From Marinitoga piezophila KA3 (GTDB lineage Bacteria > Thermotogota > Thermotogae > Petrotogales > Petrotogaceae), in the NCBI RefSeq assembly GCF_000255135.1, contig NC_016751.1, positions 2,046,001 through 2,110,000 on the forward strand: a DNA stretch of 64,000 nt, in the 5' to 3' direction. Positions 15,270 to 37,603 of this stretch are shown in pieces. The translations under genes were made by a program, and so were the position numbers. Below the pieces are notes generated by a model, which saw nothing but the letters and a program-made list of their open reading frames with translations, searched no databases and was not told the DNA's origin. The first letter of the stretch is position 1, and the number at the start of each line of letters is the position of its first letter.

Positions 15270-15358
15270 TTTTATTTTTCACAATGATAAAAAATTTCAC
15301 CTGTCTGAACGAATATTATTATTTCTTTTTGAAAATAAAAGAACGACCATTGACAATT

Positions 15359-16408: not shown

Positions 16409-16411
16409 ATA

Positions 16412-17656
16412 TTAACCCCTCACATCATAATTGCCCTGTATAACAAACTTATATGTTGTAAGTTCCTTTAATCCAACAGGACCTCTTGCATGCATTTTTT
16501 GAGTGCTAATTCCCATTTCTGCACCCATTCCGAACTCACCGCCATCTGTAAATCTCGTTGAAGCATTTATATAAACAGCTGCAGAATCTATTTCTTCCAC
16601 AAATTTCATAGCATTTAAATAATCTTCTGTAAGAATTGACTCAGAATGTCCAGTTGAATAGGTTTTGATATGCGATATAGCTTCATCTAAATCATTTACA
16701 ACCTTAATTGACAGAATCAAATCGAGATATTCCGTAGCCCAATCTTCTTCTGTTGCAGGTTTTACATCAATATGTTTTAATACCTCTTCACATCCTCTTA
16801 TTTCAACATTCTTCTCTTCAAGCCTTTTCTTCAAATCAGGCAATATCTTTGAAGCAATATCTTTATGAATTAGCACAGTTTCAACTGTATTGCATGTTCC
16901 AGGTCTTTGTGTCTTTGCGTTGTCTATAATATCAATGGATTTCATAACATCAGCGCTTTCATCAACAAAAATATGGCATATTCCAACGCCGGTTTCCAGA
17001 ACAGGAACTGTAGAATTTTTTACAACAAAGTTAATAAGCCCCTTTCCGCCTCTTGGAATAACAAGGTCAAGATACTCATTTAATTTAAGCATTTCATTTA
17101 CCAATGCTCTGTCTGTATTTTCTATTAATTCAACAGAATTTTCAGGAATGCCGGAATTTTTCAGTCCCTCTTTAATAACCTTAACAAGTGCCTTGTTAGA
17201 ATTAATTGCATCGGAACCTCCACGCAACAAAACTGTATTTCCTGATTTTAAAGCAAGAATTGTGGCATCTACAGTAACGTTAGGTCTTGACTCGTATATT
17301 ATTCCAATTACTCCAAGTGGAACTCTCATCTTGCTTATTCTAATTCCATCTTCTCTTAAAAATGAATCAAATATTTCACCAACAGGATCCTTAAGATTAA
17401 TAACCGTATTACATGAATCAATCATGCCCTTTATCCTTTTTTCATTTAAGGCAAGCCTGTCAACTAAAGCTTCCTTAACGCCATTTTTTCTTGCAATGTC
17501 AACATCTTTTTTATTTTCAGACAATATATAATCCATATTTTTTTCAAGAGCTATAGCAATCTGGCGAATAGCTTCATTTTTTTCTTTTGCCTTTGTTTTC
17601 TTTAAAAAATCAGAAGCAGATTTCAATTTTTTTGCTTTTTCTATTAATTCATTCAT
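16412..17656 (-). CDS. proA: Gamma-glutamyl phosphate reductase
   Basis: 414 residues from the ATG at 17654-17656; the GTG three codons upstream lies inside the GAGGTGAT ribosome-binding site and is rejected. Aldehyde-dehydrogenase fold reducing glutamyl-5-phosphate to the semialdehyde with NADPH. Visible are RVPLGVIGIIYESRPNVT near 110, the catalytic Cys in QRPGTCNTVET near 250, and the C-terminal MGISTQKMHARGPVGL block. It lies between proC (14 nt upstream) and proB in the same operon, giving the full glutamate-to-proline route. Confidence 0.95.
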   Translation of the reverse strand: MNELIEKAKKLKSASDFLKKTKAKEKNEAIRQIAIALEKNMDYILSENKKDVDIARKNGVKEALVDRLALNEKRIKGMIDSCNTVINLKDPVGEIFDSFLREDGIRISKMRVPLGVIGIIYESRPNVTVDATILALKSGNTVLLRGGSDAINSNKALVKVIKEGLKNSGIPENSVELIENTDRALVNEMLKLNEYLDLVIPRGGKGLINFVVKNSTVPVLETGVGICHIFVDESADVMKSIDIIDNAKTQRPGTCNTVETVLIHKDIASKILPDLKKRLEEKNVEIRGCEEVLKHIDVKPATEEDWATEYLDLILSIKVVNDLDEAISHIKTYSTGHSESILTEDYLNAMKFVEEIDSAAVYINASTRFTDGGEFGMGAEMGISTQKMHARGPVGLKELTTYKFVIQGNYDVRG

Positions 17657-17670
17657 TATAATCACCTCGC

Positions 17671-18450
17671 TTACAATTTTTTGTTTTTTAAATACGCCTC
17701 TTCAATTGCCTTCATTATTGAACCTTTTACTGCCGCTTTATCCATTTCATATAATCCTTTTATGGTTACCCCACCTGGTGAAGAAACCATATATTTCAAC
17801 TCCGAGAGTTTTAACTCTTCATTTTTTAAATATTCCAATGTTCCCATAAAAGTATTTGCTACAATCTTTAATGAATCATCGTGGGACAATCCAATATTTA
17901 TACCGCTTTCAAGAAAACTTTCTATTATATATGCAACAAAAGCAGGACCGCTGCTATTTAAAACAGTAAATGCATCAAACTTCTTTTCCTCAATTTCAAG
18001 CACTTCTCCGAGGTTTGAAAGTATTGATTTTACATCGCTAACTATATTTTCCGATATTGCAGGATTATATGCAATTGCAGTAGTGCCCAATCCGGAATTT
18101 GAAATAACAGTTGGCATTATTCTGAAAATATTCTTTTTGCCCGATAATTCATATAAATCAGCTAAAGTCTTTCCAGCAGCGGTGCTGATAATATATCTGT
18201 TCTCTTCTGATAAATCCTTGATTTTATCAAACACGTCATTTAGATGATTAGGCTTTACAGAAACAAAAGTAAATATCGCCTTTTCGTATACCTTTGAAAT
18301 TTCATCTTCTATATGGATATTTTCGTCTTCATATTTTTTAATTCTATCTTTGTTCACATCATAGATATACAATTCATATTCTTTATTAATTGAAAATCTT
18401 TTTACAAGCATACTTCCAATATTTCCAATGCCTATAATTCCAATCTTCAT
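17671..18450 (-). CDS. proC: Pyrroline-5-carboxylate reductase
   Basis: 259 residues; final step to L-proline, NAD(P)H-dependent. N-terminal Rossmann motif GIIGIGNIGSML; SVKPNHLNDV near 75; the C-terminal signature SPGGVTIKGLYEMDKAAVKGSI near 225. The length is normal for ProC (about 260-270). It begins 6 nt after the aconitase small-subunit stop, so it is part of the same transcript. In this operon proC precedes proA and proB. Confidence 0.94.
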   Translation of the reverse strand: MKIGIIGIGNIGSMLVKRFSINKEYELYIYDVNKDRIKKYEDENIHIEDEISKVYEKAIFTFVSVKPNHLNDVFDKIKDLSEENRYIISTAAGKTLADLYELSGKKNIFRIMPTVISNSGLGTTAIAYNPAISENIVSDVKSILSNLGEVLEIEEKKFDAFTVLNSSGPAFVAYIIESFLESGINIGLSHDDSLKIVANTFMGTLEYLKNEELKLSELKYMVSSPGGVTIKGLYEMDKAAVKGSIMKAIEEAYLKNKKL

Positions 18451-18456
18451 ATCATA

Positions 18457-18957
18457 TCACACTCCATAATCTCCATATTTTTTTATATATTCATCAATTC
18501 CACCAATTTCGAGTATTTTATTAACAAATTCAGGAAAAGGAATAAAATGATACTTTTTATCCTGAGTAATATTTTCAATAACTCCAAGCTTTGTATCAAC
18601 CTTGATAATATCCCCTTCGTTAAATTCATCGACTTCCTTTAATTCAATAACAGGCAGTCCAATATTAATTGAATTTCTGTAAAAAATCCTTGCAAATGAT
18701 TTTGCAATAACGCATGAAACTCCTGCAACTTTTATAATCCTTGGTGCATGTTCCCTTGAAGAACCAAGCCCGAAATTATTTCCACCAATAATAATGTCTC
18801 CTTTTTCAACACTTTTTGCAAAGTCTTCTCTTGCATCCTCTAAAACATGTTTTGCCAATTCCGGAAGATTTGATCTTAAATGGAAATATCTTCCCGGTGC
18901 TATGTGATCAGTTGAAATATTATCGCCAAATTTCCAGACTTTTCCTTTAAAAATCAT
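18457..18957 (-). CDS. Aconitase-family (LeuD-type) small subunit
   Basis: 166 residues from the ATG at 18955-18957, preceded by GGGAGG and overlapping the large-subunit stop by one base (TAATG). Swivel domain of the aconitase/isopropylmalate isomerase superfamily: KVWKFGDNISTDHIAPGRYF, then GGNNFGLGSSREHAPRIIK near 55 and SFARIFYRNSINIGLP. Family members act on citrate, homocitrate or isopropylmalate. Because it sits directly behind citrate synthase and in a route to proline with isocitrate dehydrogenase close by, aconitate hydratase activity is the best inference; there are no leuA or leuB genes here. Confidence 0.88.
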   Translation of the reverse strand: MIFKGKVWKFGDNISTDHIAPGRYFHLRSNLPELAKHVLEDAREDFAKSVEKGDIIIGGNNFGLGSSREHAPRIIKVAGVSCVIAKSFARIFYRNSINIGLPVIELKEVDEFNEGDIIKVDTKLGVIENITQDKKYHFIPFPEFVNKILEIGGIDEYIKKYGDYGV

Positions 18958-20204
18958 TATATTACCTCCCTTGGATCTGTAATATATCCTGTTAATGCGC
19001 TGGCAGCAGCCGTGGCAGGAGAGCAAAGATATATTTCAGAATTAGGATTTCCCGCTCTTCCGTGGAAATTTCTATTTTGTGTTGATAATACTTTCTCACC
19101 GTCAGCCGGGACGCCAGCATGAACGCCAACACATGGGCCACAACCTGGAGGCAATATAGTAGCTCCTGTTTCAATAAATGTGGAAATTAAACCTTCTTGT
19201 AATGCCTGTAAATAAATCTTTTTTGAGGCAGGGGCGATTATTAATCTAATATCCTCAGCCTTTTTCTTTCCTTTTAATATTGAAGCAACAATTCTCAAAT
19301 CCTCCATCCTTCCATTTGTACACGTTCCAATATATATTTGATCAATTTTAACACTTTTTGCGTCGTTTATATTTCTTGTATTATCTACAGTATGAGGGAA
19401 TGAAACCTGAGGTTCTATTTCAGACAGATCAATTTCAATAACCTTTTCATAACTTGCATCTTCATCGGGGAATAATTCCTTAAATTCATCTTCTCTTCCC
19501 TGATTTTTCATATATTCCTTTGTAATTTCATCAGCAGGGAACAATCCAACCTTTGCACCTGCTTCAACTGCCATATTTGAAATGGTTAGTCTTGATTCCA
19601 TTGATAATGTTTTTATACCATCGCCTGAAAATTCCAAAGCCTTATAAGTGGCGCCATCAGCACCTATCATGCCTATAAGATAAAGAATTATATCCTTGGC
19701 ATATACACCTTTGTTTAATTTATTCTTTAATACAATCTTATATGTTTCAGGAACCTTTAGCCATACCTTTCCAAGACCATATGCAAGAGAAATATCTGTT
19801 GAACCCATTCCTGTTGCAAAAGCAGCAAATGCCCCGGCGGTACATGAATGTGAATCGGCACCGACAATTAAATCTCCTGGTTTTGCATATTCCTCAGCTA
19901 CAATTTGATGTGATATTCCTTCGCCAATATCATATATTTCCGCATCTGTTTTTTTACAAAAATTTCTTAATTTTTTCTGCGTATTTGAAAGTTCTTTTCT
20001 TGGACTTGGTGAAGCATGATCTATAAAAACGAGAGATTTAGTGCTTACATTTTTAAAATTCATATTTTCAAATTGATCAACAGTTAAAGGCCCGGTTCCA
20101 TCCTGAACAAAAGCAAGATCAACATTGGCAATTATAATTTCGCCGGGTATTACATCTTTGCCTACATGCATGCTGAGTATTTTCTCTGCAAGTGTTTTAC
20201 CCAT
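18957..20204 (-). CDS. Aconitase-family (LeuC-type) large subunit
   Basis: 415 residues. Catalytic Fe-S subunit isomerising citrate to isocitrate (inferred from context) with the small subunit that follows. Conserved blocks: QDGTGPLTVDQF near 33, DHASPSPRKELSNTQ near 63, GADSHSCTAGAFAAFATGMGSTD near 118. The three cluster ligands are Cys in GTCTNGR near 300 and the two in PPGCGPC near 360, followed by NRNFHGRAGNPNSEIYL. The start overlaps the end of citrate synthase by 8 nt. LeuC-type aconitases separated into two subunits are known from Thermotogota and archaea. Confidence 0.88.
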   Translation of the reverse strand: MGKTLAEKILSMHVGKDVIPGEIIIANVDLAFVQDGTGPLTVDQFENMNFKNVSTKSLVFIDHASPSPRKELSNTQKKLRNFCKKTDAEIYDIGEGISHQIVAEEYAKPGDLIVGADSHSCTAGAFAAFATGMGSTDISLAYGLGKVWLKVPETYKIVLKNKLNKGVYAKDIILYLIGMIGADGATYKALEFSGDGIKTLSMESRLTISNMAVEAGAKVGLFPADEITKEYMKNQGREDEFKELFPDEDASYEKVIEIDLSEIEPQVSFPHTVDNTRNINDAKSVKIDQIYIGTCTNGRMEDLRIVASILKGKKKAEDIRLIIAPASKKIYLQALQEGLISTFIETGATILPPGCGPCVGVHAGVPADGEKVLSTQNRNFHGRAGNPNSEIYLCSPATAAASALTGYITDPREVI

Positions 20205-21321
20205 TTATTTCAACTCCCTTCATATCCTTATATTTCAAATCTTTTGGTCCATTATAAATAGAGCGCGGTCTGAAAATTCTGTTATTCTTTCTGTATTCCA
20301 TTGCATGTGCAGTCCAACCTACAATTCTTGCCATGGCAAAAATCGTTGTGAAAAATTCCTTTGGAATGCCAAAGTGGTTATAGAGAATACCAGAATAAAA
20401 ATCCACATTTGGATAAATATTCTTATCCTTAAATCTTTCCACTACAACGTCTTCAACCTTTAGGGCAATATCAAAAAAATCAACCTTCTCATGAGCAGAA
20501 ATTTCCTGAACCCATTTTTTAAGAATTTTTGCCCTTGGATCATATGTTTTATAAATTCTGTGTCCAAATCCCATTATCTTTTTCTTGTTTCTAATGAGAT
20601 TATCAATATATTCAGGAACTTTTTCTATATCTCCTATTTCTTCCAGCATTTCAAGCACCTTTTCATTTGCTCCGCCGTGTAATGGTCCTTTTAATGTGCC
20701 TATTGCAGTTGTGATAACTGAATAAATATCAGACAATGTTGATGAGGTTACCGTTGAAGCAAAGGTTGATGCGTTCATTCCCTGTTCCATATGCAGTATC
20801 AAAGCCTTATCAAAACATTTTGAATATTCAGGTAATTCACCAAACATCATATACAGGAAATTCTCAGAATGATTGAGATGTTCCTCAGGATAAATAATAG
20901 GTAAATTATTTTTTATCCTATACCAATATGCAATAATTGTTGGAATCTTTGCCGTTAAATTAATAGCATTTTCAAGCGTTGAATTATCTTCTTTTGAATA
21001 CATTCCAAGCATTGAAACAACACTTCGTAAAACAGCCATGGGATGAGCGTTTTCCGGGAATAACCTCATCATTTCCACAATGTTTTCTGGAAGATTTCTC
21101 TTTTTTGATAACATTGATTTTATAAAATCCTCTTCATTTTCATTTGGCAAAGAGCCAAACCAGATTAAATATGCTACCTCTTCAAAATATGAGTTTTCAA
21201 CGAGATCTTCTATTTCAAATCCTCTATACACGAGCTTACCTTTTTCACCGTCTACATAAGATATGGAACTTATTGCAACAGCAACACCCTCAAGACCGTG
21301 CTTTAAATCTTCTTTTTTCAT
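20197..21321 (-). CDS. gltA: Citrate synthase
   Basis: 374 residues from the ATG at 21319-21321 behind a near-perfect AGGAGGTGAT site; the TTG just upstream is rejected. Condenses acetyl-CoA and oxaloacetate. Active-site regions: EQGMNASTFASTVTSSTLSD near 190 (His replaced in this short loop, as in several bacterial families), GPLHGGANEKV near 225 and GFGHRIYKTYDPRA near 265, with FPENAHPMAVLRSVVSMLG near 95. The length fits the ~370-residue Gram-positive/archaeal class. It is the first structural gene of an operon running to proB and lies directly behind the attenuator at 21342-21454. Confidence 0.93.
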   Translation of the reverse strand: MKKEDLKHGLEGVAVAISSISYVDGEKGKLVYRGFEIEDLVENSYFEEVAYLIWFGSLPNENEEDFIKSMLSKKRNLPENIVEMMRLFPENAHPMAVLRSVVSMLGMYSKEDNSTLENAINLTAKIPTIIAYWYRIKNNLPIIYPEEHLNHSENFLYMMFGELPEYSKCFDKALILHMEQGMNASTFASTVTSSTLSDIYSVITTAIGTLKGPLHGGANEKVLEMLEEIGDIEKVPEYIDNLIRNKKKIMGFGHRIYKTYDPRAKILKKWVQEISAHEKVDFFDIALKVEDVVVERFKDKNIYPNVDFYSGILYNHFGIPKEFFTTIFAMARIVGWTAHAMEYRKNNRIFRPRSIYNGPKDLKYKDMKGVEING

Positions 21322-21341
21322 CAAATCACCTCCTGATATAG

Positions 21342-21454
21342 AAAAAAGGCCACACTTTTTATAGTGTGGCCTTTACATTAATCCCTTAAGTTATACAAAT
21401 AGCATTATACACCGAACTTAAGGTGTTGTGTAAAGACCACACCTTTGGGTTCGG
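21342..21454 (-). promoter_or_regulatory. Five-segment transcription attenuator of the citrate synthase-proline operon
   Basis: On the minus strand five mutually pairing segments follow the leader start. Segment 1 is 21432-21454 (CCGAACCC then AAAGGTGTGGTCTTT), segment 2 is 21412-21426 (ACACCTTAAGTTCGG), segment 3 is 21384-21392 (AACTTAAGG), segment 4 is 21363-21374 (AAAGGCCACACT) and segment 5 is 21342-21356 (AGTGTGGCCTTTTTT). Pairings 1:2 and 4:5 give a terminator with a T-run; 1:4 enclosing 2:3 gives an alternative without it. The Pro codons of the leader peptide lie in the 5' arm of segment 1. The same design is found at 37402-37492. Confidence 0.8.
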
Positions 21455-21512
21455 GCTGATTATTTAATGTTTTATTGTTATTTATTGTGTTTAATAGCGA
21501 TCTCAAAAACAT
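21405..21512 (-). CDS. Leader peptide of the citrate synthase-proline operon
   Basis: 35-residue reading frame, ATG at 21510-21512, preceded by GGAGGAG with 6-nt spacing and lying just behind a promoter, so a longer frame starting further upstream is not transcribed. The peptide contains L-L-N-T-I-N-N-N, then Q-P-E-P-K with two CCC Pro codons at the 5' edge of the attenuator stem. The N-terminal part resembles the leader peptide at 37462-37545 (L-I-N-T-L-N-I-N). Its likely role is ribosome-mediated sensing of charged tRNA-Pro (possibly Gln/Glu); this is inference from codon position and from the operon product. Confidence 0.7.
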   Translation of the reverse strand: MFLRSLLNTINNNKTLNNQPEPKGVVFTQHLKFGV

Positions 21513-21543: not shown

Positions 21544-21572
21544 ATTCTAACATATAAATTATGAATTGTCAA
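21544..21572 (-). promoter_or_regulatory. Promoter of the citrate synthase-proline operon
   Basis: On the minus strand TTGACA (21567-21572), 17-nt spacer, TAGAAT (21544-21549). Transcription would start near 21537, a few bases before the leader peptide ribosome-binding site. Confidence 0.85.
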
Positions 21573-24944: not shown

Positions 24945-26645
24945 GGGACTATCCAAAATACTGTGTAAATTAATTATAGTTGGTTATAAGAGATTATTTG
25001 TGTTTAGGAATAAATATGATGTTTATTCTTAATAATTCAAGAAAATTCAATACTTTGTGAAATCAAAATATTAGAGTTATAATTTTTAATGAGATATTAA
25101 AAATTGTTTGAATAATTTTTTTAATAATCTTTTTGTTTTTTAAGAAGCTAATTTTTGAGTTTTCACTCCTTTTGCACAATTTAGTGCAATCTTTTAAGAA
25201 ATATTCACTTTTCAAAGTTTAATATATACAGAATTTTGAATTTTCTTTTTAATCGTTTGTTCTGTAAATAGGCACTCTATCATCTCCAAAATATATTCTT
25301 AACTCATTTAATATTTGTCCCCAATCCCTAATTCTTGTAGTCCATTTTTCCGTTATTCTCATTGCTGCAAAATATATTGCTTTTATCAATGAGTCATCTG
25401 TTGGAAATACGCTTTTGTTTTTGGTTATTTTTCTAAATTGTCTATGAACATTTTCTATTGGATTGGTTGTGTATATCAGCCTTCTTATTGGTTCTGAATA
25501 TTTAAAATAGGCTGATAATTTATCCCAATTATTTTTCCATATTTGTACTGCCAAGGGGTGAGTTTCGCCCCATTTTTTTCGAAATCTTCAAGTGCAGCTT
25601 CAGCAGCTTCAAGACTTGGAGCTTGATATATAGGTTTTAAATCCTTAACAACAGCTTTTCTATGCTTATGAGGGACATATTTAAATGTATTCCTCAATTG
25701 ATGGACAATACACATTTGAACTTCAGCATTAGGGAAAGCGGTATGGATTGCATCAACAAAACCATTTAACCCATCAACAGAAGCGATTAAAATATCTTTA
25801 ACACCTCTGGCTTTTAAATCATTCAAGACATTCATCCAGAATCTTGAGGATTCAGTTTTTTCTATGTATATACCAAGGATATCCTTATATCCATCAAGAT
25901 TAATACCTATGACGTTATATATAGCCTTTCTTTTAACAACACCATCTTCTTTTACTGAATAAAATGAAGCGTCCAGATATACAATAGCATATATCTCTTC
26001 CAAAGGTCTATTTCTCCAATCATTTATTAAAGGCATTACAGAATTAGTAATCATACTGATTTTCTCTGGAGAAACTTCCACATCATATATTTCTTTAATA
26101 TGGTCTCTAATATCCCTGACACTTAATCCTTTTGAATATAGCGATAATACCAAATCCTCAATAACAGAAATATGTCTTTGTCTCTTTTTAACAATTTGTG
26201 GTTCAAATTCTCCATTCCTATCCCTTGGAACTGTTAATTCCATCTCACCATTTTTAGTTATTACAGTTTTTTTAGAATAACCATTTCGATAATTATCGTT
26301 ATCCTCAGGTTTTCTGGAATACTTTTCATATCCAAGTTCATAATCCATTTCTGCTTTCAACATTTCTTCAAGCATTATTTTTACAAGCTTTTTGCTTATA
26401 TCCTCAACATCATTCCAATCCTTAATTCCATTTTCTTTTATATATTGTTTTATGAAATTCCTATCCACATTGCCAAGAATCTGTTCATTTTCCTCTTTTC
26501 TTTTTCTCGGCATTACTATCCCCCCATGTAACCTTTTTTTCAAAATCCCCTTTCTCTTTCACCACACTACTGGGCTTCCTTTTTTCACATATTCATTCTT
26601 TTTATTTTTCTATTTTTTTATTTACACACTTTTTATTATACTACC
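24945..26645 (-). mobile_element. IS256-family insertion sequence with 8-bp target duplication
   Basis: Ends are defined by comparison with module copy 2, where the sequence is uninterrupted at the equivalent point. ATTTTTTA occurs directly before (24937-24944) and after (26646-26653) the element. The ends are imperfect inverted repeats: left GGGACTATCCAAAATACTGT, right (reverse complement) GGTAGTATAATAAAAAGTGT, both continuing GTAAAT. Length 1701 bp, longer than usual for the family because of ~300 bp of non-coding DNA at the left end (24945-25248), in which I see no gene. The insertion changed the last codons of the AlbA-type gene. Confidence 0.88.
25249..26513 (-). pseudogene. IS256-family (mutator) transposase, frameshifted in an A-run
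   Basis: The two frames together make a ~421-residue transposase starting at the ATG 26511-26513 (MPRKRKEENEQ; GGGGGG site upstream). DDE residues are visible: YLDASFYSV, SVDGLNGFVDAIHTAFPNAE, and the Glu in NPIENVHRQFRK in the downstream frame. The frame breaks at a run of seven A (minus strand; bases 25573-25579): with eight A the sequence would read EKKWGETHPLAVQIW, the normal family sequence. It is therefore a one-base deletion, a sequencing error in a homopolymer, or a site of transcriptional slippage; the rest looks intact. Confidence 0.88.
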
Positions 26646-27085
26646 ATTTTTTAAGATATAATAACTGCCTTTTGTTTTGCCGATTTTTTCTAAAATACCT
26701 TTTTTAGTTAAATTCTTAAGAATTTCCTTTGCTCTTGTTGATTTTATATTTAATATATTTTCAGCATTTTTTACATTAATTTTTTTGTTTTTAATTACAA
26801 AATCATAAATTATTTCTTCTTGAATTGTTAAATCCGCCGGTTTTCCGCCGGTTTTCCGTCGGTTTTCTGTCGGTTTTCCGTCGGTTTTTCGCTGGTTATT
26901 CGCTGGTTTTTCAACGGTATTTATTTTTGGTCTGTAAAAAACAATACTCACAAAATTCCCTGTTTCATTTATTTCAAATTTGATGTTTTTTTCTTCGCAA
27001 ATTTTTTTAACCTTTCCAATTCCACTTCCCCAGGTTTCTACATAATTTAATTCTCTAAAAAGATTAGCCAAAACTTTATTTCTTA
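26622..27085 (-). pseudogene. AlbA_2/ATPase/winged-helix protein, C-terminal remnant (copy 1)
   Basis: Matches only the last third of the intact gene at 32312-33721: NLFRELNYVETWGSGIGKV, the RKTDGKP-type linker and the winged-helix end. At its 5' side (27083-27097) the sequence jumps from the middle of this gene to the 3' end of the AAA gene within TTATTTCACTTC, a sequence present at both corresponding places in copy 2 (32758 and 33742), so ~984 bp were lost by recombination between short repeats. At its 3' side the last codons come from the IS end. The first in-frame ATG is at 27069-27071, but translation is doubtful. Confidence 0.86.
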
Positions 27086-28840
27086 TTTCACTTCTTCAAC
27101 AAACTTAGCTTCTTTCCCAACAAAGATTATTATGAATTTTTTCATTCTCTCATTTTTTGAATTTAATTCGTATGATTTTTTGTATCTTTCTATCTGTTCT
27201 CTTGCCTGAGCGATTTTTTCTTTGAATTTACTTTCGGTATATTCATTCTGTTTTATGTATTTTATTTCTATTATCGCTTCATATGGCACTTCTTCATATC
27301 TTTTGAACATTGCTATATCCACATATCCGCCTTCTACTGGATACTCCATCTTTACCATTGCAAATGGTGTTAATATTAAGTAGCTATACATCAGTATTTT
27401 TATATATTTTTCATCAAATCCCATGAATATTCTGTTATCCAGTTTGCTTAATAGATTTTCTATTTCTTTTGCAAATGTATTTATTTCTCCATCCAATAAT
27501 ATATTTCTTACAGCTATTTCTATTGGTTCTGAATCGATATATTCTGTTAATTTTTCTTCTATATATTCTGTGAAATAATCTGAGAATATCTTTCTCATTG
27601 AATAATTTGGTATTTTTAAATATGTTCTTAAGTTTTCCATTTCAAATGTCATAAATCCAAGATAGAATAATAATGATTTTATGTCTTTTATGTCTATCCT
27701 TTTTCCAGGATTGAATATGGTGGTTAATTCTGTTAATTCCGTTCTTCCTGTTAATAGTATTTCATTCAATAGATTCCCTATTGTTCTTTTTGAGCTTTCT
27801 TTTTCTCTTTGTTCTTTTGTTAATTCCTTTCCATTCTCTTTTTCTATTGTTACTCCGAGTAATTCTCCTAAATTAAATAGATTCTGAACTTTTTTGTAAT
27901 CGCTTAATATGTTATCATCTATTATTTTTTGTGGAGGTCTTTTCTCTTTTTGATATTTTATTATAAAATAAAATACCATGTCGGGATTATATACTGTTTT
28001 TGAAGCATTTTCATTGAATTTATATCCATTGTAATTTTCTTCCATTTCCTTTAATAATTTATCAGAATATATCTCATAATATTCAAGTAATTGAATTACT
28101 TCTTCTTTTGTAAATCCCAACATTCTATTGAAATCTTTTTCTATTGTAATATTCATTGTTATATTAAACCCACTGGTTAATGAGTCAAGCATTATTGGAC
28201 TTACTCCTGTCATGAATATCCTTTTTATTATTGTTTCTGTTCCTTTTTTGATTTCTTCATAGAATTTTCTTACAAATCCATGCTTTGTTATGCTATCTCT
28301 AAATAAATCGAGATTAAAACTCAATAACTCATTTGCAAAATGATCGTATTCGTCTATTAATAGGTATATTGGTTTGTTTAAAATATCTTTTGCATCAGTT
28401 AAAAACGCTCTTATTATATCTGCTGGTTCGCTATATTCTTCTTTTATTGATAGTTCTAATTTATATCTATTATTAAAATCTACAAGTGAGGCTATTACAT
28501 TATTTTTAAAGCTCTTTATTAATATGTCTTTATTTTCTGTTTGAATTCCGGAAAAATTCATTTTTAGTATGTAATAATTATTTTTCAATGGAGTTAGATT
28601 TTTTCCTATGTATAATTTTCCAAATAAATTTTCAAATTTTTCTTTATTATTTACATCATAATATGCCATTAGTGTATTGATAAAAAGGGTTTTTCCAAAT
28701 TTCCTCGGTCTTAAAAAAACTATATATTTTTCATTTAAGTTTTCTAATTTTTCTATATATTCTGTTCTGTCTACATAATAATAATTATCTTTTATTAATA
28801 ATTCAAATTCCTGTTCTCCATATGGTATTTTCTTTTTCAT
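27083..28840 (-). CDS. AAA-ATPase-like protein with PD-(D/E)XK nuclease domain (intact copy 1)
   Basis: 585 residues from the ATG at 28838-28840 (GAGGTGAT site). N-terminal AAA-ATPase_like domain: PYGEQEFELL, Walker A region RPRKFGKTLF near 48 and Walker B LLIDEYDHF near 160; then MTGVSPIMLDSLTSGFN near 220. The C-terminal PDDEXK_9-type nuclease domain is visible near 520: GYVDIAMFKRYEEVPYEAII followed by EIKY, giving the D...ExK core. Proteins of this pairing are abundant and often duplicated in Thermotogota and Bacteroidota, and their role is not established. It is probably the first gene of a two-gene operon with the AlbA-type gene. Copy 2 (33794) lacks the nuclease part. Confidence 0.85.
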   Translation of the reverse strand: MKKKIPYGEQEFELLIKDNYYYVDRTEYIEKLENLNEKYIVFLRPRKFGKTLFINTLMAYYDVNNKEKFENLFGKLYIGKNLTPLKNNYYILKMNFSGIQTENKDILIKSFKNNVIASLVDFNNRYKLELSIKEEYSEPADIIRAFLTDAKDILNKPIYLLIDEYDHFANELLSFNLDLFRDSITKHGFVRKFYEEIKKGTETIIKRIFMTGVSPIMLDSLTSGFNITMNITIEKDFNRMLGFTKEEVIQLLEYYEIYSDKLLKEMEENYNGYKFNENASKTVYNPDMVFYFIIKYQKEKRPPQKIIDDNILSDYKKVQNLFNLGELLGVTIEKENGKELTKEQREKESSKRTIGNLLNEILLTGRTELTELTTIFNPGKRIDIKDIKSLLFYLGFMTFEMENLRTYLKIPNYSMRKIFSDYFTEYIEEKLTEYIDSEPIEIAVRNILLDGEINTFAKEIENLLSKLDNRIFMGFDEKYIKILMYSYLILTPFAMVKMEYPVEGGYVDIAMFKRYEEVPYEAIIEIKYIKQNEYTESKFKEKIAQAREQIERYKKSYELNSKNERMKKFIIIFVGKEAKFVEEVK

Positions 28841-29103
28841 TTCAATCACCTCATATGTAATTAATCCTATTTTCATTTCTTATACAGATATTATACCATA
28901 TCTATTATAATACATCTGAGTTTTAAATGAAACCTTTCAATTATTATTGAAACCATTTAGCATTCCTGAAACCTGCATAAAACCAAAAAGTTTTCTAAAT
29001 TGAAATATTTAGTTAATAAAAATTCAAAAAAAAAAAAAAAATAAGATACATTATAGTCGGTAATTTAATATTTTATTAAACTAAAAACAAAGGAGGCAGA
29101 GTG

Positions 29104-31491
29104 ATGAAGAAGGCGCTAAAAGTTTTTTTACTTGTGGTAATTGCACTTGCGGTTATTGTTGCAATTCTTCCGGGCGATGATGAAGAAACAACACAATCTT
29201 CAATTAGTTCAACAAGCAGTTCTACACAGGAGGAAACATACGATACTTCAAATGATGAACAAACAGATTTGAATTATGAAGAAGAGGAAACTGATGAAGA
29301 AACATATGAAGAAGAGACAACAGAAAATGAAAAAATAGAGACAGAAAATTTAAATGTAAAAAAATTAAATGAAGGTAAATATTTTTTTGTAGCAAAAGGA
29401 AATTATATAGGCGCATATGATATATCAGAAAAATATTCTCTTAAATTTATTCAATCTGTAAAATTGCCAATCAGTTTTCAGCCAGAAGATATAGTTTATG
29501 ATGGAAGATACACATATACACCTAATTTGACAATTATTGACTGGAATAATATCGAAAAACCTGAAATTACATACAAAGGATATAATATTGCAGGATTTTC
29601 AAAAATAAAAATCGATAAAAATTATGCGTATATATATCACAAAGATAAAGGCATTTTAATATATGACATAAGCAATAAAAATAAGCCTGAAAAATTGGGA
29701 AAATTTAATATAAAAGGTATTTATAACTATTTTATAAAAGATAGATATATGTATATAAGTGGAAAATTTGAAATTGATGATAAGGCATACCTATTATTAA
29801 TTGTTGACATTAAAGACAAAACAAATCCTAAAATAATTGGGAAATATAGGAATAAGCATGAAGAGCATGATTATGATCAAGTGGGGTATAATATATATAT
29901 AAAAGATAATTATGCAATAATATTAGAACCAGATAAAATAGAAATTGTTGATATAAGCAGTAAAAGCAATATAAGATCAGTAAAGAATATTGATGTAGGT
30001 GGTTATAGTGGATCTTTTTATGATAGCAGTCTAAAAAGTGGAAAAGCATTTGTTGATGAATATAAGAATTATATTGTAGCAGGGGATTTTAAATATCTCT
30101 TTTTCATAGATTTAAATAAAAAGAAAATTATTAAAGCATTTACTGTTTATTCTAATAGGAAAATAATTATAGGAGATTATCTATATAGTTTATATTTAGT
30201 TGATAATTCTGGTTTCCTGAAGATATTTAATATAAGTAACATAAATGTTGATAAATTGGAATATAAAACCTTTTCTTTTGAATATTTTAATTTTGAAATA
30301 TATAAAAATAATTTGTATGTTTTTTATAAAAATGATGATTATAGTACAGGTACTCGTGTTGATTTGAAAAATAAAAGTTTATCATCAATACCCCAAATTC
30401 TTAGGCCAACTAATTATGCTTTTTATAAATATTTTGTAAGAAAAAATAATGAAATAATATATGTTGGTAAAGATAGAGTTGTTATTAATGAAATGAAAGA
30501 TGAAAATAATATAAAAAGAACTGTTATTAAATTTTCTGAAATTCCCGAATTAAAAAATTCAGGGAAAACAAATAGAGTTTTGGTGGACAGGAATAAAGAT
30601 TATGTATATATAATTTTTAGAGAACCTGTTATGATAAAGGTTCTTGATATTAGCGATAAAGATTTTCCAGAAGTAGTAGGTGAATTGAAAATAGAAAATG
30701 AAAAATTTTATGGATATGATTGGCCTATGGTTAGAGATTTAAATGTAAAAGGTGGTATAAGAGATGGTGAATGGAATAGGTGCACAGATGGTAAATATTT
30801 ATATCTTTCAACAACAGATAATTTATATATAGTGGAATTATCAGAAAATCCATCTATTGTAGGAAAAATTAATACACCTGGGTATATTCTTGGAAAAGGC
30901 GGAAATTATTTAATAGTTCAGGAAGGAAAAAAGGATTCAAGCGGAAGAAGATTTTCTCTTACAGATAAATTAGTATTTATAGATATATCAGATAAAAATA
31001 ATCCTGAGATAGCAAACACAATAGAATTAAAAGGAGACTTTTCAAACTGGGAGATAAGTGAAAATAAAATGGTATATTTTAAATATAATAATAATAGAAA
31101 ATATTTTATTGATTTTAGTGATATAAATAATATAAAAGAATCAGAGTTTACTTTTACAAGAGAAGAAAATTTATACAGTTCTGATGACAATGAATATTTT
31201 ATGAATGATAGTAAATTTTATGTATTAAAATTAATGAAATCTATTAATAGAGATTATGCTGATATTTTTATAGATATTTATGATATATCAGATATAACTC
31301 AAATAAAAAAGATTAAAGAAATAGAATTAGCTAAATATATAAGACCATTTTTCAGTATTTTTGAAAAAGAAGATTCAGGAATATATATTTATTTAAAATA
31401 TTCATATATAATAATAGATTTTGATACAGATAATGATAAAGTGAATAGAGTTATGCCTCTTCCAATTTCTTATGCGGTAACTGGGAGATGA
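29104..31491 (+). CDS. Membrane-anchored LVIVD-repeat beta-propeller protein, copy 2
   Basis: 795 residues from the ATG at 29104 (GGAGG site, same context as copy 1). Identical N-terminal membrane segment and Ser/Thr-rich linker for 56 residues, then an extra acidic stretch (EEEETDEETYEEETTENEK) and a propeller body of its own. Blade motifs include IYDISNKNKPEK, IVDIKDKTNPK, IVDISSKSN, VLDISDKDFPE, FIDISDKNNPE, IYDISDITQ. The body aligns only loosely with copy 1, while the flanking DNA is almost unchanged. The stop is followed 4 nt later by the start of the 251-residue gene, closer than in copy 1. Confidence 0.82.
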   Translation: MKKALKVFLLVVIALAVIVAILPGDDEETTQSSISSTSSSTQEETYDTSNDEQTDLNYEEEETDEETYEEETTENEKIETENLNVKKLNEGKYFFVAKGNYIGAYDISEKYSLKFIQSVKLPISFQPEDIVYDGRYTYTPNLTIIDWNNIEKPEITYKGYNIAGFSKIKIDKNYAYIYHKDKGILIYDISNKNKPEKLGKFNIKGIYNYFIKDRYMYISGKFEIDDKAYLLLIVDIKDKTNPKIIGKYRNKHEEHDYDQVGYNIYIKDNYAIILEPDKIEIVDISSKSNIRSVKNIDVGGYSGSFYDSSLKSGKAFVDEYKNYIVAGDFKYLFFIDLNKKKIIKAFTVYSNRKIIIGDYLYSLYLVDNSGFLKIFNISNINVDKLEYKTFSFEYFNFEIYKNNLYVFYKNDDYSTGTRVDLKNKSLSSIPQILRPTNYAFYKYFVRKNNEIIYVGKDRVVINEMKDENNIKRTVIKFSEIPELKNSGKTNRVLVDRNKDYVYIIFREPVMIKVLDISDKDFPEVVGELKIENEKFYGYDWPMVRDLNVKGGIRDGEWNRCTDGKYLYLSTTDNLYIVELSENPSIVGKINTPGYILGKGGNYLIVQEGKKDSSGRRFSLTDKLVFIDISDKNNPEIANTIELKGDFSNWEISENKMVYFKYNNNRKYFIDFSDINNIKESEFTFTREENLYSSDDNEYFMNDSKFYVLKLMKSINRDYADIFIDIYDISDITQIKKIKEIELAKYIRPFFSIFEKEDSGIYIYLKYSYIIIDFDTDNDKVNRVMPLPISYAVTGR

Positions 31492-31495
31492 TTGA

Positions 31496-32251
31496 ATGAA
31501 CAATCGATCTCGGGATAGTGAATTTTATAAAAACATAGGAGAAAGGGTTTTTGCAGTATATAATCAATATGGTTATAGCGGTGTTGTAAAAAATACAATA
31601 AATCTCATACTAATAGATGAAATAGTAAAAAGAAAAGTTGAAAGTGAAGATAAAGAAAAAGTTTTAAGAGCATATTTAAGAGATGGAAGAGCTCTTGCAA
31701 GCGAGATTTCCAGGCATTTAAAAGTAGATAAAAACACGGCGCAAAACCTTTTAAAAAAGTCATATAATATGTGGTATTCAGGTGAAGAAAGCGGAAGAAA
31801 AGAATTAAAAGAAATATTGATTGATAGTTTGAAAAATTCAAAACATAATGTGAAAAGGGTTCTGGAAAGCGGAAAAATAACAATTGTTGTAGATAATAAA
31901 TTATTGAAGGAGCAACTTGAACAATTGTTCTATGAAAATGGAATATATGCTGATTATTCATTTAATAGGGACTTAATGGTTATCGACTTATATCATTTAA
32001 CAGTAATCTTTTCTAAAGGTGAAGAAATAAAAATAAAAGATTTTGAAAAAGCTTTGATGAATATAAACTCTGAATTTAAGGAAATATATTCAAAGTTTAA
32101 AGCAGAAAAGGTTTTAGAAAAGAAGGAACCAAAAGAATATCTGGAAGATCTTTTGAAATTGGGTGGAAAAAAGATTTTAGGAAAAATTGGAGAAGATGCT
32201 GCAGAAAAGGTATATAGCCTAATTCTTGAATATTTCTTTGGTATAAACTAA
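31496..32251 (+). CDS. Conserved 251-residue protein of unknown function, copy 2
   Basis: 251 residues, ATG at 31496 just after GGGAGATGATTGA. Differs from copy 1 by three visible substitutions (Arg for Gln at 4, Ser for Asn at 8, Ala for Val near 235). Same putative helix-turn-helix near 60-92 and Lys/Glu-rich C-terminal helices; family not recognised. Near-identity at the DNA level, including synonymous sites, indicates either a recent duplication or continuing gene conversion, which contrasts with the diverged propeller gene upstream. Confidence 0.75.
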   Translation: MNNRSRDSEFYKNIGERVFAVYNQYGYSGVVKNTINLILIDEIVKRKVESEDKEKVLRAYLRDGRALASEISRHLKVDKNTAQNLLKKSYNMWYSGEESGRKELKEILIDSLKNSKHNVKRVLESGKITIVVDNKLLKEQLEQLFYENGIYADYSFNRDLMVIDLYHLTVIFSKGEEIKIKDFEKALMNINSEFKEIYSKFKAEKVLEKKEPKEYLEDLLKLGGKKILGKIGEDAAEKVYSLILEYFFGIN

Positions 32252-32258
32252 AAAACAA

Positions 32259-32310
32259 TCCTCCTCTTCCTGAGTTGTTTCTATTATCCAGGAAGAGGAG
32301 GATTTTATTT
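32259..32310 (+). terminator. Intrinsic terminator of module copy 2
   Basis: Stem TCCTCCTCTTCCTG / CAGGAAGAGGAGGA with T-run, duplicated from copy 1 with one extra closing pair. Confidence 0.9.
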
Positions 32311-32311
32311 T

Positions 32312-33721
32312 TTAATGTTGATTTTTTAAGATATAATAACTACCTTTTGTTTTGCCGATTTTTTCTAAAATACCTTTTTTAGTTAAATTCTTAAGAATTT
32401 CCTTTGCTCTTGTTGATTTTATATTTAATATATTTTCAGCATTTTTTACATTAATTTTTTTGTTTTTAATTACAAAATCATAAATTATTTCTTCTTGAAT
32501 TGTTAAATCCGTCGGTTTTCCGCCGGTTTTCCGTCGGTTTTCTGTCGGTTTTCCGTCGGTTTTTCGCTGGTTATTCGCTGGTTTTTCAACGGTATTTATT
32601 TTTGGTCTGTAAAAAACAATACTCACAAAATTCCCTGTTTCATTTATTTCAAATTTGATGTTTTTTTCTTCGCAAATTTTTTTAACCTTTCCAATTCCAC
32701 TTCCCCAGGTTTCTACATAATTTAATTCTCTAAAAAGATTAGCCAAAACTTTATTTCTTATTTCACTTCTTCCATTCATTACTTCTTCTAAAGTTAATCC
32801 ATTTGGAAATCCTCCAGGTGAAACAATTTCCACAATATCATCATAAATAGCTACTTTAATATCACTGTTTCTTAAATAATCTCTATGAATTATTGCGTTT
32901 ATTAGCACTTCTCTAAGAGCCAAAAGTGGAATTTCAAGCTCTTCCTTTAATTGTAATCCTTCAACTTCTGCATTTAAATTAAGATGGTTCTGTAAAAATT
33001 TAATGGTGTTTTCCAGATTATAAAATAAATTTCCATCGAATTCTTTTTTATCTATAAATATTTCTTTTGTGATCCCTTTAAATCTCGCACATTTTATCAT
33101 TGTATTATCAAATTTTCCAAGAGTTATTAAAAGTGCATTTGTGGGCATATCTTTACCGTTTATATTTTTTATGAGTTTTAAATTTTTTAATTTGTCATAA
33201 TCACATTTTTTATTTATTTTTTTGAATTCGTTATAAATGATATTTAAATCAATATCTTTGATTTCAAATTCAAAATTTATTTCTTCATCAAAACTTTTAT
33301 TAAGTCTTTGTCTTTGGAGTTCTGCTATCATATTTTCATCTGCGATTCTGTTTGTTGAGCCAATTCTTATATATGTTCCTTTTAATTTTCCTTTATTTTT
33401 AAGATAATATGGCAATAATGAACCGCGAAAAACTTCTATAACCAGAACTACTTTGCCATTAATATTTTGAGCGTAAATTTCTGGTAAAATAGTCGGATAG
33501 CATAAATCATTAATGATAGATGAAATTTTTTCTTCATATTCAAAAATTTTGTCTTCTTCAATCCCTACTATTTCTCTGTTATCATTTACTCCAATAATTA
33601 ATTTTCCGCCACTGGTATTGCTAAATGCAACAACAGTTTTGGCGATAGCTTCGTTTGAAGGAAGCTTTTCTTTCAGTTCAAGTCTCTTATTTTCACCTTT
33701 TTTTATTTCATCTAAAAGCAT
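32312..33721 (-). CDS. AlbA_2 (Schlafen-like) / ATPase / winged-helix protein (intact copy 2)
   Basis: 469 residues from the ATG at 33719-33721 (GGGTGA site 6 nt upstream; the GTG at 33728-33730 overlaps that site). The N-terminal AlbA_2 domain carries LELKEKLPSNEAIAKTVVAFSNT and GGKLIIGVNDNREIVGIE; the centre has LREVLINAIIHRDY and the HATPase_c_4-type EIVSPGGFPNGLT near 290, then ELNYVETWGSGIGK. A low-complexity linker of repeated RKTDGKPTENRRKTGGKP type (about 375-400) leads to a C-terminal winged helix. Related proteins are putative transcriptional regulators or helicase-like DNA-binding proteins. It begins shortly after the remnant end of the AAA gene, indicating an original AAA-AlbA operon. 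Confidence 0.87.
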   Translation of the reverse strand: MLLDEIKKGENKRLELKEKLPSNEAIAKTVVAFSNTSGGKLIIGVNDNREIVGIEEDKIFEYEEKISSIINDLCYPTILPEIYAQNINGKVVLVIEVFRGSLLPYYLKNKGKLKGTYIRIGSTNRIADENMIAELQRQRLNKSFDEEINFEFEIKDIDLNIIYNEFKKINKKCDYDKLKNLKLIKNINGKDMPTNALLITLGKFDNTMIKCARFKGITKEIFIDKKEFDGNLFYNLENTIKFLQNHLNLNAEVEGLQLKEELEIPLLALREVLINAIIHRDYLRNSDIKVAIYDDIVEIVSPGGFPNGLTLEEVMNGRSEIRNKVLANLFRELNYVETWGSGIGKVKKICEEKNIKFEINETGNFVSIVFYRPKINTVEKPANNQRKTDGKPTENRRKTGGKPTDLTIQEEIIYDFVIKNKKINVKNAENILNIKSTRAKEILKNLTKKGILEKIGKTKGSYYILKNQH

Positions 33722-33743
33722 TTGACTCACCCACTGTAATTTT

Positions 33744-35142: not shown

Positions 35143-35841
35143 TCATGCAATTTCATATTTCATTTCTGTTTTAAAAAAAGTTTCAGGATCCATATTTTCA
35201 AGGATTTTTCCGTCTTTCATAAATATAATTCTGTTTCCTGCTTTTTTTGCAAAATCTACTTCGTGGGTTACAACTATCATGGTTTTTCCCATTTTTGCCA
35301 ATTCTACCATTGTTTCTTTTACTTCATATACCAGACTTGGGTCAAGTGCTGATGTGGGTTCATCAAATAATATAATTTCCGGATCCATTGCTAAAGCCCT
35401 TGCTATTCCTGCACGTTGTTGTTGTCCGCCAGATAATTGTGAAGGAAAATTATATGCTTTATCTTTTAAATGAACTTCTTCCAACACTTTCAAAGCTATA
35501 TCATAAGCGTCTTTTTTTGTCATTTTTTTTGTTCTTATTAATCCCAATGAGATATTGTCTATAATTTTTAAATGAGGAAATAGGTTGTGTTGCTGAAATA
35601 CAAAACCTATTTTTTGAACAAGTTTTTTTCTATCGTAATTTAATATATTTTTTTCCTCCAGGGTTATTATTCCATCTTGATATGGTTCAAGACCGGCAAT
35701 ACATCTTAATAATGTTGATTTTCCAGAGCCAGAAGGTCCCATAACTACAAGAACTTCACCTTTTAATACCGTTAAATCCACTCCTTTTAATACTTCTAAA
35801 TCTCCAAAGCTTTTGACAAGTTTTTTAATTTTTATTATCAT
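35143..35841 (-). CDS. Polar amino-acid ABC transporter ATP-binding protein (GlnQ/HisP type)
   Basis: 232 residues: Walker A GPSGSGKST near 36, Q-loop FVFQQHNLFPH, signature LSGGQQQR near 133, Walker B IILFDEPTSALDP, H-loop VTHE. These are standard for the polar amino-acid uptake family. The start overlaps the permease stop by 4 nt. It is the last of the three transporter genes; the start of the accessory module lies directly downstream. Confidence 0.94.
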   Translation of the reverse strand: MIIKIKKLVKSFGDLEVLKGVDLTVLKGEVLVVMGPSGSGKSTLLRCIAGLEPYQDGIITLEEKNILNYDRKKLVQKIGFVFQQHNLFPHLKIIDNISLGLIRTKKMTKKDAYDIALKVLEEVHLKDKAYNFPSQLSGGQQQRAGIARALAMDPEIILFDEPTSALDPSLVYEVKETMVELAKMGKTMIVVTHEVDFAKKAGNRIIFMKDGKILENMDPETFFKTEMKYEIA

Positions 35842-36578
35842 GGAATTGCGAACCTCCTTTCAAAATATTTTCCAAGTAGTTGTAATAAGGCTGTGACCGT
35901 GAAATAAAATGCGGCTATTGTGATATATGATTCAAAGGAAGCAAACGAGGAGGTGGCAATTTGCCTACCAACCATCGTTAATTCCTGTAAAGCAATTACA
36001 GATGCTAAAGAACTGTCTTTTACAAGACTGATAAATTGTCCTGTTAATGCAGGTAATGTTGTTCGAAATGCCTGAGGCAATAATACGTCAATGTATAAGA
36101 AGAATGTGTTTAGTCCTATACTTTTTGCTGCTTCTATCTGTCCTTTTGGAACGGCTTCTATACCTCCACGGATTATTTCGGAAATATAGGCACCTTCAAA
36201 TAATGCGAGAGATACTATTGCTCCAACGTATGCACTTATATCAATTATTGAACCAACGCCATAATAGGTTATTAAGATTATTACAAGTAATGGAATATTT
36301 CTAAATATGGTTGTATATGTATTCGCAAAATCTTCTAAGAGTTCAAATTTTGATGTTTTCATTATTCCCACTACTACACCTATTATCAATGCAAAAAAGA
36401 TTGAGAAAACTGAAATTTTTAAAGTCATATAGAATCCGTCTAAATAAAGATTCATATATTTAAAAGGCACCTTGCTCCAATTAAAAGGATAGGTTTTTGA
36501 CATCTGAAAATAGAAAAGTGCGAAAATCATTATTATAATAAAATATGCGAATATTTTTTTCATATATCTTCTGTCCAA
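35838..36578 (-). CDS. Polar amino-acid ABC transporter permease
   Basis: 246 residues from a TTG at 36576-36578, 7 nt after GGGGTGA and 3 nt after the binding-protein stop; the ATG at 36560-36562 (MKKIFAYF) is the alternative but has only a weak site. One N-terminal membrane segment, then the HEQRO-type permease domain with ISVFSIFFALIIGVVVGI and the EAA region near 175 (EAAKSIGLNTFFLYIDVLLPQAF). It forms the channel with the neighbouring ATPase, probably as a homodimer since only one permease gene is present. Confidence 0.92.
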   Translation of the reverse strand: MDRRYMKKIFAYFIIIMIFALFYFQMSKTYPFNWSKVPFKYMNLYLDGFYMTLKISVFSIFFALIIGVVVGIMKTSKFELLEDFANTYTTIFRNIPLLVIILITYYGVGSIIDISAYVGAIVSLALFEGAYISEIIRGGIEAVPKGQIEAAKSIGLNTFFLYIDVLLPQAFRTTLPALTGQFISLVKDSSLASVIALQELTMVGRQIATSSFASFESYITIAAFYFTVTALLQLLGKYFERRFAIP

Positions 36579-36581
36579 AGT

Positions 36582-37358
36582 TTATTCACCCCAATCGTAT
36601 TCAATCATCCATTTTTGTTTTAATTGATCTAATGTTCCGTCTGTTTTTACGCATTCTATAAATGTGTTTAACCATAATAATAGATCAATATTTTCCTTTT
36701 TTACAGCAATTCCTAATTTTTCTTTGTTTAAAAGATTTTCTGTTGTTTTTATAGCAGGATATTTTTTTGATATAGAGCCGTAGTATAATTCATCAAAGAC
36801 CATAGCATCAGCTTTTTTGGTGATTATTTGATATGCTGCAGCATCAACAGTTTCAAATGTAAGAATTTTAGCTTCCGGGAAAAACTTTCTTGCTGCAAAT
36901 TCCCCTGTTGTACCGAGCTGGACAGCTATTTTTGCTTTGTTTCCCATTTTCTTAAGATCGTTTTCAGTTAAACCATTGGGATATTTATCGCTATTGTAGA
37001 ATATAATCTGACCTGTTTCATAATAAGAAGTTGTGAAATTAACCTTTAAAGCCCTTTCAGGTGTTATTGTCATTCCAGCTAAAATGAAATCAAATTTATC
37101 TGCTAACAATGCAGGAATAATACCGTCCCAATTAGTAATTACAAATTTTACTTTTACACCTAAAACATCAGCCATCATTTTTGCCAGTTCAACTTCATAA
37201 CCAATTCTTTCGCCTTTTGTGTTTACACCGTAAAATGGAGCATAAGCAGGATCCTGACCAATTAGTAACACACCGCGTTTTTGAATTTCCTCAATTTTTC
37301 CTCCGAATATCACCATACTTAAAATTACAACAACCATCATAACAAATACCTTTTTCAT
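36582..37358 (-). CDS. Polar amino-acid ABC transporter substrate-binding protein (SBP family 3)
   Basis: 258 residues with signal peptide MKKVFVMMVVVILSMVIFG and a GGGAGGGAG site. Family 3 blocks: GVLLIGQDPAYAPFYG, GYEVELAKMMADVLGV, NWDGIIPALLADKFDFILAGMTITPERA and a C-terminal LKQKWM. It binds an amino acid outside the membrane; the Arg in TITPERA contacts the carboxylate in this family. Side-chain specificity cannot be read with certainty; the upstream leader peptide with His and Arg codons hints at histidine or arginine. Confidence 0.93.
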   Translation of the reverse strand: MKKVFVMMVVVILSMVIFGGKIEEIQKRGVLLIGQDPAYAPFYGVNTKGERIGYEVELAKMMADVLGVKVKFVITNWDGIIPALLADKFDFILAGMTITPERALKVNFTTSYYETGQIIFYNSDKYPNGLTENDLKKMGNKAKIAVQLGTTGEFAARKFFPEAKILTFETVDAAAYQIITKKADAMVFDELYYGSISKKYPAIKTTENLLNKEKLGIAVKKENIDLLLWLNTFIECVKTDGTLDQLKQKWMIEYDWGE

Positions 37359-37401: not shown

Positions 37402-37492
37402 AAAAAAGGGCCACACTTTTTAAAGTGTGGCCCTTTGGATTCCTTGAGTCAATACGACAACTCAAGGTGTTAGCCTCAGGCCACACCTTGAG
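37402..37492 (-). promoter_or_regulatory. Five-segment transcription attenuator of the amino-acid transporter operon
   Basis: On the minus strand: segment 1 at 37479-37492 (CTCAAGGTGTGGCC), segment 2 at 37460-37470 (ACACCTTGAGT), segment 3 at 37442-37449 (ACTCAAGG), segment 4 at 37422-37436 (AAAGGGCCACACTTT), segment 5 at 37404-37419 ending in a T-run. Pairings 1:2 plus 4:5 terminate; 1:4 enclosing 2:3 is the alternative. The design equals that at 21342-21454, and the differences are compensatory: CCTTGAGT/ACTCAAGG here and CCTTAAGTT/AACTTAAGG there. Confidence 0.82.
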
Positions 37493-37545
37493 TGATGTCT
37501 TAATATTATTGAATTTATATTTAATGTATTTATTAAATTCATCAT
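37462..37545 (-). CDS. Leader peptide of the amino-acid transporter operon
   Basis: 27-residue frame, ATG ATG at 37540-37545 with AGGAGG 8 nt upstream. It reads M-M-N-L-I-N-T-L-N-I-N-S-I-I-L-R-H-H-S-R and continues C-G-L-R-L-T-P, ending inside attenuator segment 2. The Arg-His-His codons lie directly before segment 1, the position held by Gln-Pro-Glu-Pro in the homologous leader at 21405-21512. Candidate sensed amino acids are therefore His or Arg, in line with a polar amino-acid importer downstream; this is inference. Confidence 0.7.
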   Translation of the reverse strand: MMNLINTLNINSIILRHHSRCGLRLTP

Positions 37546-37574
37546 GTTAATATCCTCCTTCAGAATTTTTTGTA

Positions 37575-37603
37575 AGTATAACATAATTTTTCCTGTTTGT
37601 CAA
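37575..37603 (-). promoter_or_regulatory. Promoter of the amino-acid transporter operon
   Basis: On the minus strand TTGACA (37598-37603), 17-nt spacer, TATACT (37575-37580), just upstream of the leader peptide ribosome-binding site; nearly the same layout as the proline operon promoter. Confidence 0.86.

Follow-up and report, generated by a model that had tools for sequence, protein, structure and literature searches.

The 64,000-nucleotide stretch of Marinitoga piezophila KA3 DNA that we have analysed (the window) carries on its minus strand the genes of an amino-acid ABC transporter. These encode a substrate-binding protein (SBP; SBP_bac_3, 36582-37358), a permease (HEQRo_perm_3TM, 35838-36578) and an ATPase of the GlnQ/HisP class (35143-35841), which together make up a polar amino-acid ABC importer. 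The SBP gene is the first regulated gene and follows a leader (37603-37402, minus strand) in which every part named in the original prediction was found at its place: promoter, short ORF, core, an ACACCTT element complementary to the core, a copy of the 5' arm and a terminator. The promoter is of the sigma-70 type (TTGACA-17-TATACT, 37575-37603), with 11 of 12 matches and an extended TG. The predicted leader ORF, MMNLINTLNINSIILRHHSRCGLRLTP (37462-37545), has 27 codons, with GGAGG upstream and its TGA at 37462, and the peptide ends in LRHHSRCGLRLTP. The control codons AGA CAT CAC (Arg-His-His, 37492-37500), on which ribosome-position folding placed the switch point, lie in this ORF, and the core AAGGTGTGG is at 37489-37481.

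All arms of the transporter leader lie on the same strand. Arm 1 (ACTCAAGGTGT, 37483-37493) can pair with arm 2 (ACACCTTGAGT, 37460-37470), whose other possible partner, in the antiterminator, is arm 3 (ACTCAAGG, 37442-37449), which repeats the 5' part of arm 1. The antiterminator partner of arm 1' (GTGTGGCC, 37479-37486) is arm 4 (37423-37435), which is also the 5' half of the terminator and there pairs with arm 5. Arm 5 and the U-run (37402-37418) form the 3' half of this intrinsic terminator (GGGCCACACTT/AAGTGTGGCCC plus the U-run), and the SBP start codon lies 43 bases on. Single-strand folding of the leader gave z = -9.0, with 0 shuffles equally stable.

The core occurs only once more in the window, at 21445-21437 (0.14 expected), within a leader (21572-21340, minus strand) that precedes citrate synthase (20197-21324). 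The latter is the first gene of an operon for glutamate and proline synthesis that continues with the large and small subunits of an aconitase-family enzyme, proC, proA and proB (15359-20204). This leader contains a promoter, TTGACA-17-TAGAAT, read directly (21544-21572), the leader ORF MFLRSLLNTINNNKTLNNQPEPKGVVFTQHLKFGV (21405-21512), the control codons CAG CCC GAA CCC (Gln-Pro-Glu-Pro, 21447-21458) and a five-arm switch running from the core to the terminator GGCCACACT..AGTGTGGCC (21345-21445), all on the minus strand; its folding z was -4.5, again with 0 shuffles equally stable. Terminators of the type GGCCACACT/AGTGTGGCC stand at both leaders (0.03 expected). The control codons of both leaders are those that had been claimed, and direct reading also bore out the claimed paired changes between them (CCTTGAGT/ACTCAAGG versus CCTTAAGTT/AACTTAAGG). 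Besides 1:2, and beyond what the original prediction spelled out, the two leaders have a nested second pairing in common: the terminator's 5' arm binds the 3' part of the core and so encloses the 2:3 hairpin. The transporter and citrate synthase ORFs cross the shared RNA core in different frames, and one extra A in the window's own citrate synthase leader brings a third frame over it. The claimed likeness of the peptide N-termini (LINTLNIN and LLNTINNN) held for these two leaders but not generally, the seven species keeping mainly the stretch from the control codons onward.

The importer and citrate synthase operons are adjacent in the other genomes of the genus and ~14 kb apart in the window's genome, where the intervening DNA contains, among others, Mutator-family transposase, AAA-ATPase_like/PDDEXK_9 and SLFN_AlbA_2 genes (25485-33730). 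Because these genes separate operons that adjoin each other elsewhere in the genus, an insertion or rearrangement is suggested to have split them here. Facing the proB end, a TwoAYGGAY RNA (RF01731) scored above threshold on the plus strand (15119-15259), directly upstream of an ORF at 15284-15640.

Both leaders are kept, with compensatory changes, in the six other genomes of the genus, and all seven genomes together hold 17 leaders. An ORF with a ribosome-binding site and a start codon is present in all leader orthologues, which are accordingly predicted to be translated, and all leaders have an intrinsic terminator before the first gene. The transporter-leader orthologues of six species keep RH(H/R)SRCG and a terminal LTP; the reading is RHHSRCG, replaced by RHRSRCG in one genome (G004), where Arg takes the place of the second His. 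A second leader, found before a second SBP in three genomes, reads HHHLRCG, HHHFRCG or HHHLKCG. In one genome (G002, L040 3676-4451) the first SBP gene is broken into two overlapping frames, with the second copy intact. Among the citrate synthase leaders, those of six genomes share NNQPEPK and that of the seventh has NNEPEQK. Counted in one frame relative to the core, His stands at -10 in 17/17 and at -7 in 16/17 of the transporter and his-operon leaders, and AGA stands at -13 in 7/7 main transporter leaders; since the control codons lie partly inside arm 1, some of this codon conservation could reflect RNA pairing.

We have searched 121 genomes with the pattern GTGRYC-N35-65-GRYCRC-N3-16-GTGRYYNNTTTT, using the reversed pattern as control. 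The search returned 20 matches, 19 of them real, and the reversed control returned 3. One of the 20 was a chance match in coding sequence, 11 were in other genomes of the genus and six in sister genera, the last all being histidine biosynthesis leaders. The remaining two were in the window's genome (2.24 Mb). The genome-wide search proposed as a check of the prediction thus gave exactly two copies in the own genome and, in sister genera, copies with His codons before his operons. A covariance model gave the 17 leaders of the genus 74-107 bits and no other sequence more than 37 bits; seven weak matches (L157, L160, L161, L163, L166, L168 and L177) were rejected as simple terminators or gene ends. 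Among the other genome sites with AAGGTGTGG (15 in all), the eight inspected were non-attenuators and appear to be fortuitous matches within coding sequence. A search of the sister genera for citrate synthase and a close SBP found neither. Public records titled Thermotogota, Petrotoga or Fervidobacterium MAGs also carry his leaders.

The arms can form two exclusive folds, a terminator state composed of 1:2 and 4:5 and an antiterminator state in which 2:3 sits inside 1':4. For the terminator state, 98.6% of the cells were paired over the 17 leaders, and the covariation score was 0.183 compared with 0.111 in shuffles (0/500 as high) and at most 0.086 in slid versions. The outer helix of the antiterminator, 1':4 (GTGTGGCC/GGCCACAC in the window's transporter leader), was 99.3% paired over the same leaders, and the whole antiterminator scored 0.151 versus 0.113 in shuffles (0/500). 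The 2:3 helix reached 73.9% in the formal count, its weaker covariation arising because some rows have arm 3 wrongly aligned by MAFFT. Arm 4 has to match both arm 1' and arm 5, and all three covary: arms 1'/4/5 are GGCT/AGCC/GGCT in G004 and CGTGGCCG/CGGTCACG/CGTGACCG in the his group, whose arms were anchored by motif, the joint MAFFT alignment being too gapped for pair counts. When arms were exchanged among the three groups (transporter, citrate synthase and his), they paired more weakly than each group's own arms.

In ribosome-position folding, the nascent RNA up to arm 4 was subjected to an equilibrium calculation, repeated with the ribosome on every codon of the leader in turn. As in classical attenuation, all groups kept arm 4 sequestered while the A site was at or before the control codons and had it free 1-2 codons further on and at the stop codon. 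With footprints of +9, +12 and +15, 35 of the 36 leaders had their last permissive codon within or immediately beside the control codons, the codons at the switch point being RHH, HHH, QPEP, KK.VK or RRHHR; a leader with MMM before metQ switched sharply at the third Met. Equilibrium folding of ribosome-free nascent RNA cut at arm 4 favoured the antiterminator (0.8-1.0), which indicates that the off state needs a ribosome at the stop codon or prior formation of arm 1:2.

We propose that, with ample charged tRNA, the ribosome would reach the leader stop and leave arm 4 free, so that the 4:5 terminator would form and the operon would be off. When the tRNAs for the control codons (Arg/His/His or Gln/Pro/Glu/Pro) are uncharged, the ribosome would presumably stall there and mask arm 1 in its 5' part. 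This would let arm 2 pair with arm 3, and the still-free arm 1' would pair with arm 4 around 2:3, blocking the presumed termination in vivo and allowing transcription of the importer (or of the Glu/Pro operon). The RNA arms would be a fixed chassis, with specificity set by the codons. The leaders share the features of this attenuator class: an ORF overlapping the first arm, codons at the switch point, exclusive covarying folds and a terminator. We consider that one and the same design of ribosome-mediated transcription attenuator underlies both leaders and that the importer is most likely one for His, perhaps for His and Arg, with a probability of about 0.88.

The prediction of a modular family with exchangeable codons was supported by leaders in other Thermotogota. 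The same architecture is found before hisZ operons, with HHH (HH in G010), and before hisIE operons, with HH, and in both frame and register the His codons of the sister-genus his leaders agree with those of the HHH leaders of the second SBP. G010 also has an MMM leader of the same layout before a MetQ/NlpA-type methionine SBP (metQ; L158 1500-2428). Another family of the class is built on a second core, CCGGTGGA..TCCACCGGG, and reads KKYVK before dapF, KKQVK before aspartokinase, KKHHVK before a family-3 SBP and RRHHR before a family-5 SBP; whether the two cores have one ancestor or a separate origin on the same plan is not settled. When the codons were compared with the downstream pathway, as had been suggested, the match was clear in six gene sets (hisZ, hisIE, metQ, dapF, aspartokinase and citrate synthase-proCAB), and the I/V/L codons of an amidohydrolase group remained unexplained. 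The latter (L156 and L159) read IIYVVLIL and VVYIVLIL before PF01979 amidohydrolase genes, with no obvious cognate pathway.

As to the substrate of the importer, hisD was found in none of the seven genomes of the genus, but T. maritima and four genomes from sister genera do have it; likewise, neither hisF nor argG was found above the cut-off in any of the seven. Lacking these genes, the genus is predicted to need external His and Arg. The SBP is of the basic/polar amino-acid class, and its nearest solved relatives are in the basic amino-acid group. Its residues D36, Y39, R102 and D189 align with what we take to be the ligand-anchoring positions of HisJ/ArgT (Asp11, Tyr14, Arg77 and Asp161), and its pocket has a Trp at the position of Leu52 in E. 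coli HisJ and Phe52 in ArgT, which does not single out histidine. The SBP of the window (36582-37358) and one of family f5 (L117 1621-2406) are related, with 42% identity. Since SBPs behind both attenuator types are related, importer and attenuator may share a history. The predicted specificity for His or Arg thus finds sequence-level support in the missing hisD, hisF and argG, in the HHH leaders of the second SBP and in the SBP class, and we favour a histidine importer, possibly also taking arginine.

The main alternative keeps the attenuator as proposed and makes arginine (or lysine or another polar amino acid) the main substrate, with the His codons mattering less. It would fit the invariant AGA of the main leaders, the Arg at -7 in G004, the missing argG, the basic-group relatives of the SBP and a pocket that is aromatic where ArgT has Phe52. 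However, the three second-SBP leaders read HHH with no Arg before the core, and sister-genus leaders of the same layout precede histidine biosynthesis, so that we hold this alternative to be possible but rather doubtful. Cysteine was also weighed as the amino acid sensed, on account of the TGT of the core and of cystine-type permease matches, and was rejected since this TGT is situated beyond the switch point and belongs to arm 1'. The remaining alternatives replace codon reading itself. In nascent-peptide arrest, of which TnaC and SecM are examples, the leader peptide would stall the ribosome and the RNA switch would answer a ligand, not codon charging. The peptide end RHHSRCGLRLTP is indeed well kept among orthologues, but the transporter and citrate synthase leaders use different frames over one RNA core, and the extra A in the own citrate synthase leader alters the residues after QPEPK and leaves the RNA arms intact. 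Moreover, the control codons vary with the pathway (His, Met, Lys, Glu/Pro). In place of the conserved peptide expected of an arrest sequence, the frame over the core varies between leaders and among the citrate synthase orthologues. That the residues past the control codons differ and the RNA is kept argues against peptide arrest, which we regard as improbable.

A metabolite-binding riboswitch or a T-box with an incidental short ORF appears less probable still. Such an element could account for a long, conserved and structured leader upstream of amino-acid genes, but the sole conserved structure is the two alternative folds, and pathway-specific codons stand at the switch point in every group. 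At threshold, no Rfam family matched the two window leaders or the tested his, SBP, dapF and lysC relatives, nor did the T-box model match the tested leaders, and PMC2494555 and PMC3766115 report no T-boxes for the Thermotogae that they surveyed. The least credible reading is that of plain terminators or processing hairpins between genes accompanied by a chance ORF. It explains the intrinsic terminator, but not a promoter, an ORF and five ordered arms kept in seven species with compensatory changes, nor a pattern that occurs just twice in the genome and whose reversed form is so rare in the 121 genomes.

Most known cases of codon-reading transcription attenuation come from Proteobacteria, Actinobacteria and some Firmicutes. 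In the his and trp leaders the antiterminator lies within a chain of neighbouring hairpins, unlike the nested antiterminator (1' with 4 around 2:3) of the device described here. The his, thr, leu and trp leaders of E. coli and Salmonella (RF00514, RF00506) otherwise resemble it in leader ORF, end-product codons, exclusive arms and intrinsic terminator, and use codon stalling as the signal, as we propose here; they differ in that here one chassis would serve several amino acids. Their mechanism is described in PMC9413887 and the theory in PMC1183508. The Rfam models His_leader (RF00514) and Thr_leader (RF00506) scored below threshold on our leaders, the latter with 23.8 bits against a cut-off of 55. 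For Firmicutes (Bacillus cereus group, Peptostreptococcaceae and Erysipelotrichales), the available part of PMC9413887 lists candidate His attenuators which, similarly to our leaders, place three to five His codons immediately ahead of the attenuator hairpins that precede his operons; these belong to another phylum, concern histidine genes and are described there without codon-swapped relatives, and Thermotogota go unmentioned in that part of the text. Histidine T-boxes of Firmicutes control his transporters (PMC2494555, PMC9413887), thus providing RNA-level control of His importers, also in histidine auxotrophs, with a specifier codon that predicts the substrate as the control codons do here. 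Unlike our device, a T-box reads uncharged tRNA directly and has no leader ORF, and none is listed for the Fusobacteria/Thermotogae genomes of PMC2494555. The amino-acid attenuators of Rfam possibly have a gamma-proteobacterial origin with few transfers (PMC3766115). In the open-access literature we found no published record of leader-peptide attenuation in Thermotogota. The mechanism is a known one, classical ribosome-mediated attenuation; what is new is that the antiterminator is nested, that the phylum is Thermotogota and that the codons are swapped along a series.

These leaders add Thermotogota to codon-reading attenuation and form a series in which the codons vary and the RNA plan stays constant, which opens the evolution of attenuator specificity to direct tests. 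The control codons also offer a simple rule for predicting the substrates of unknown importers and operons, and the chassis of ~140 nt might be turned into programmable amino-acid sensors in thermophiles. We lean, by a little, towards a broader interpretation in which all leaders would be of common descent: one ancestral, duplicable attenuator chassis would serve Thermotogota as a general amino-acid starvation control in place of T-boxes and gamma-proteobacterial leaders, and would have been re-targeted repeatedly by codon swap, even by frame shift. If so, this chassis would be a natural regulator whose sensor and actuator evolve separately, and its set would include a sensor of mixed type (Gln/Pro/Glu) for an operon that combines the glutamate and proline genes.
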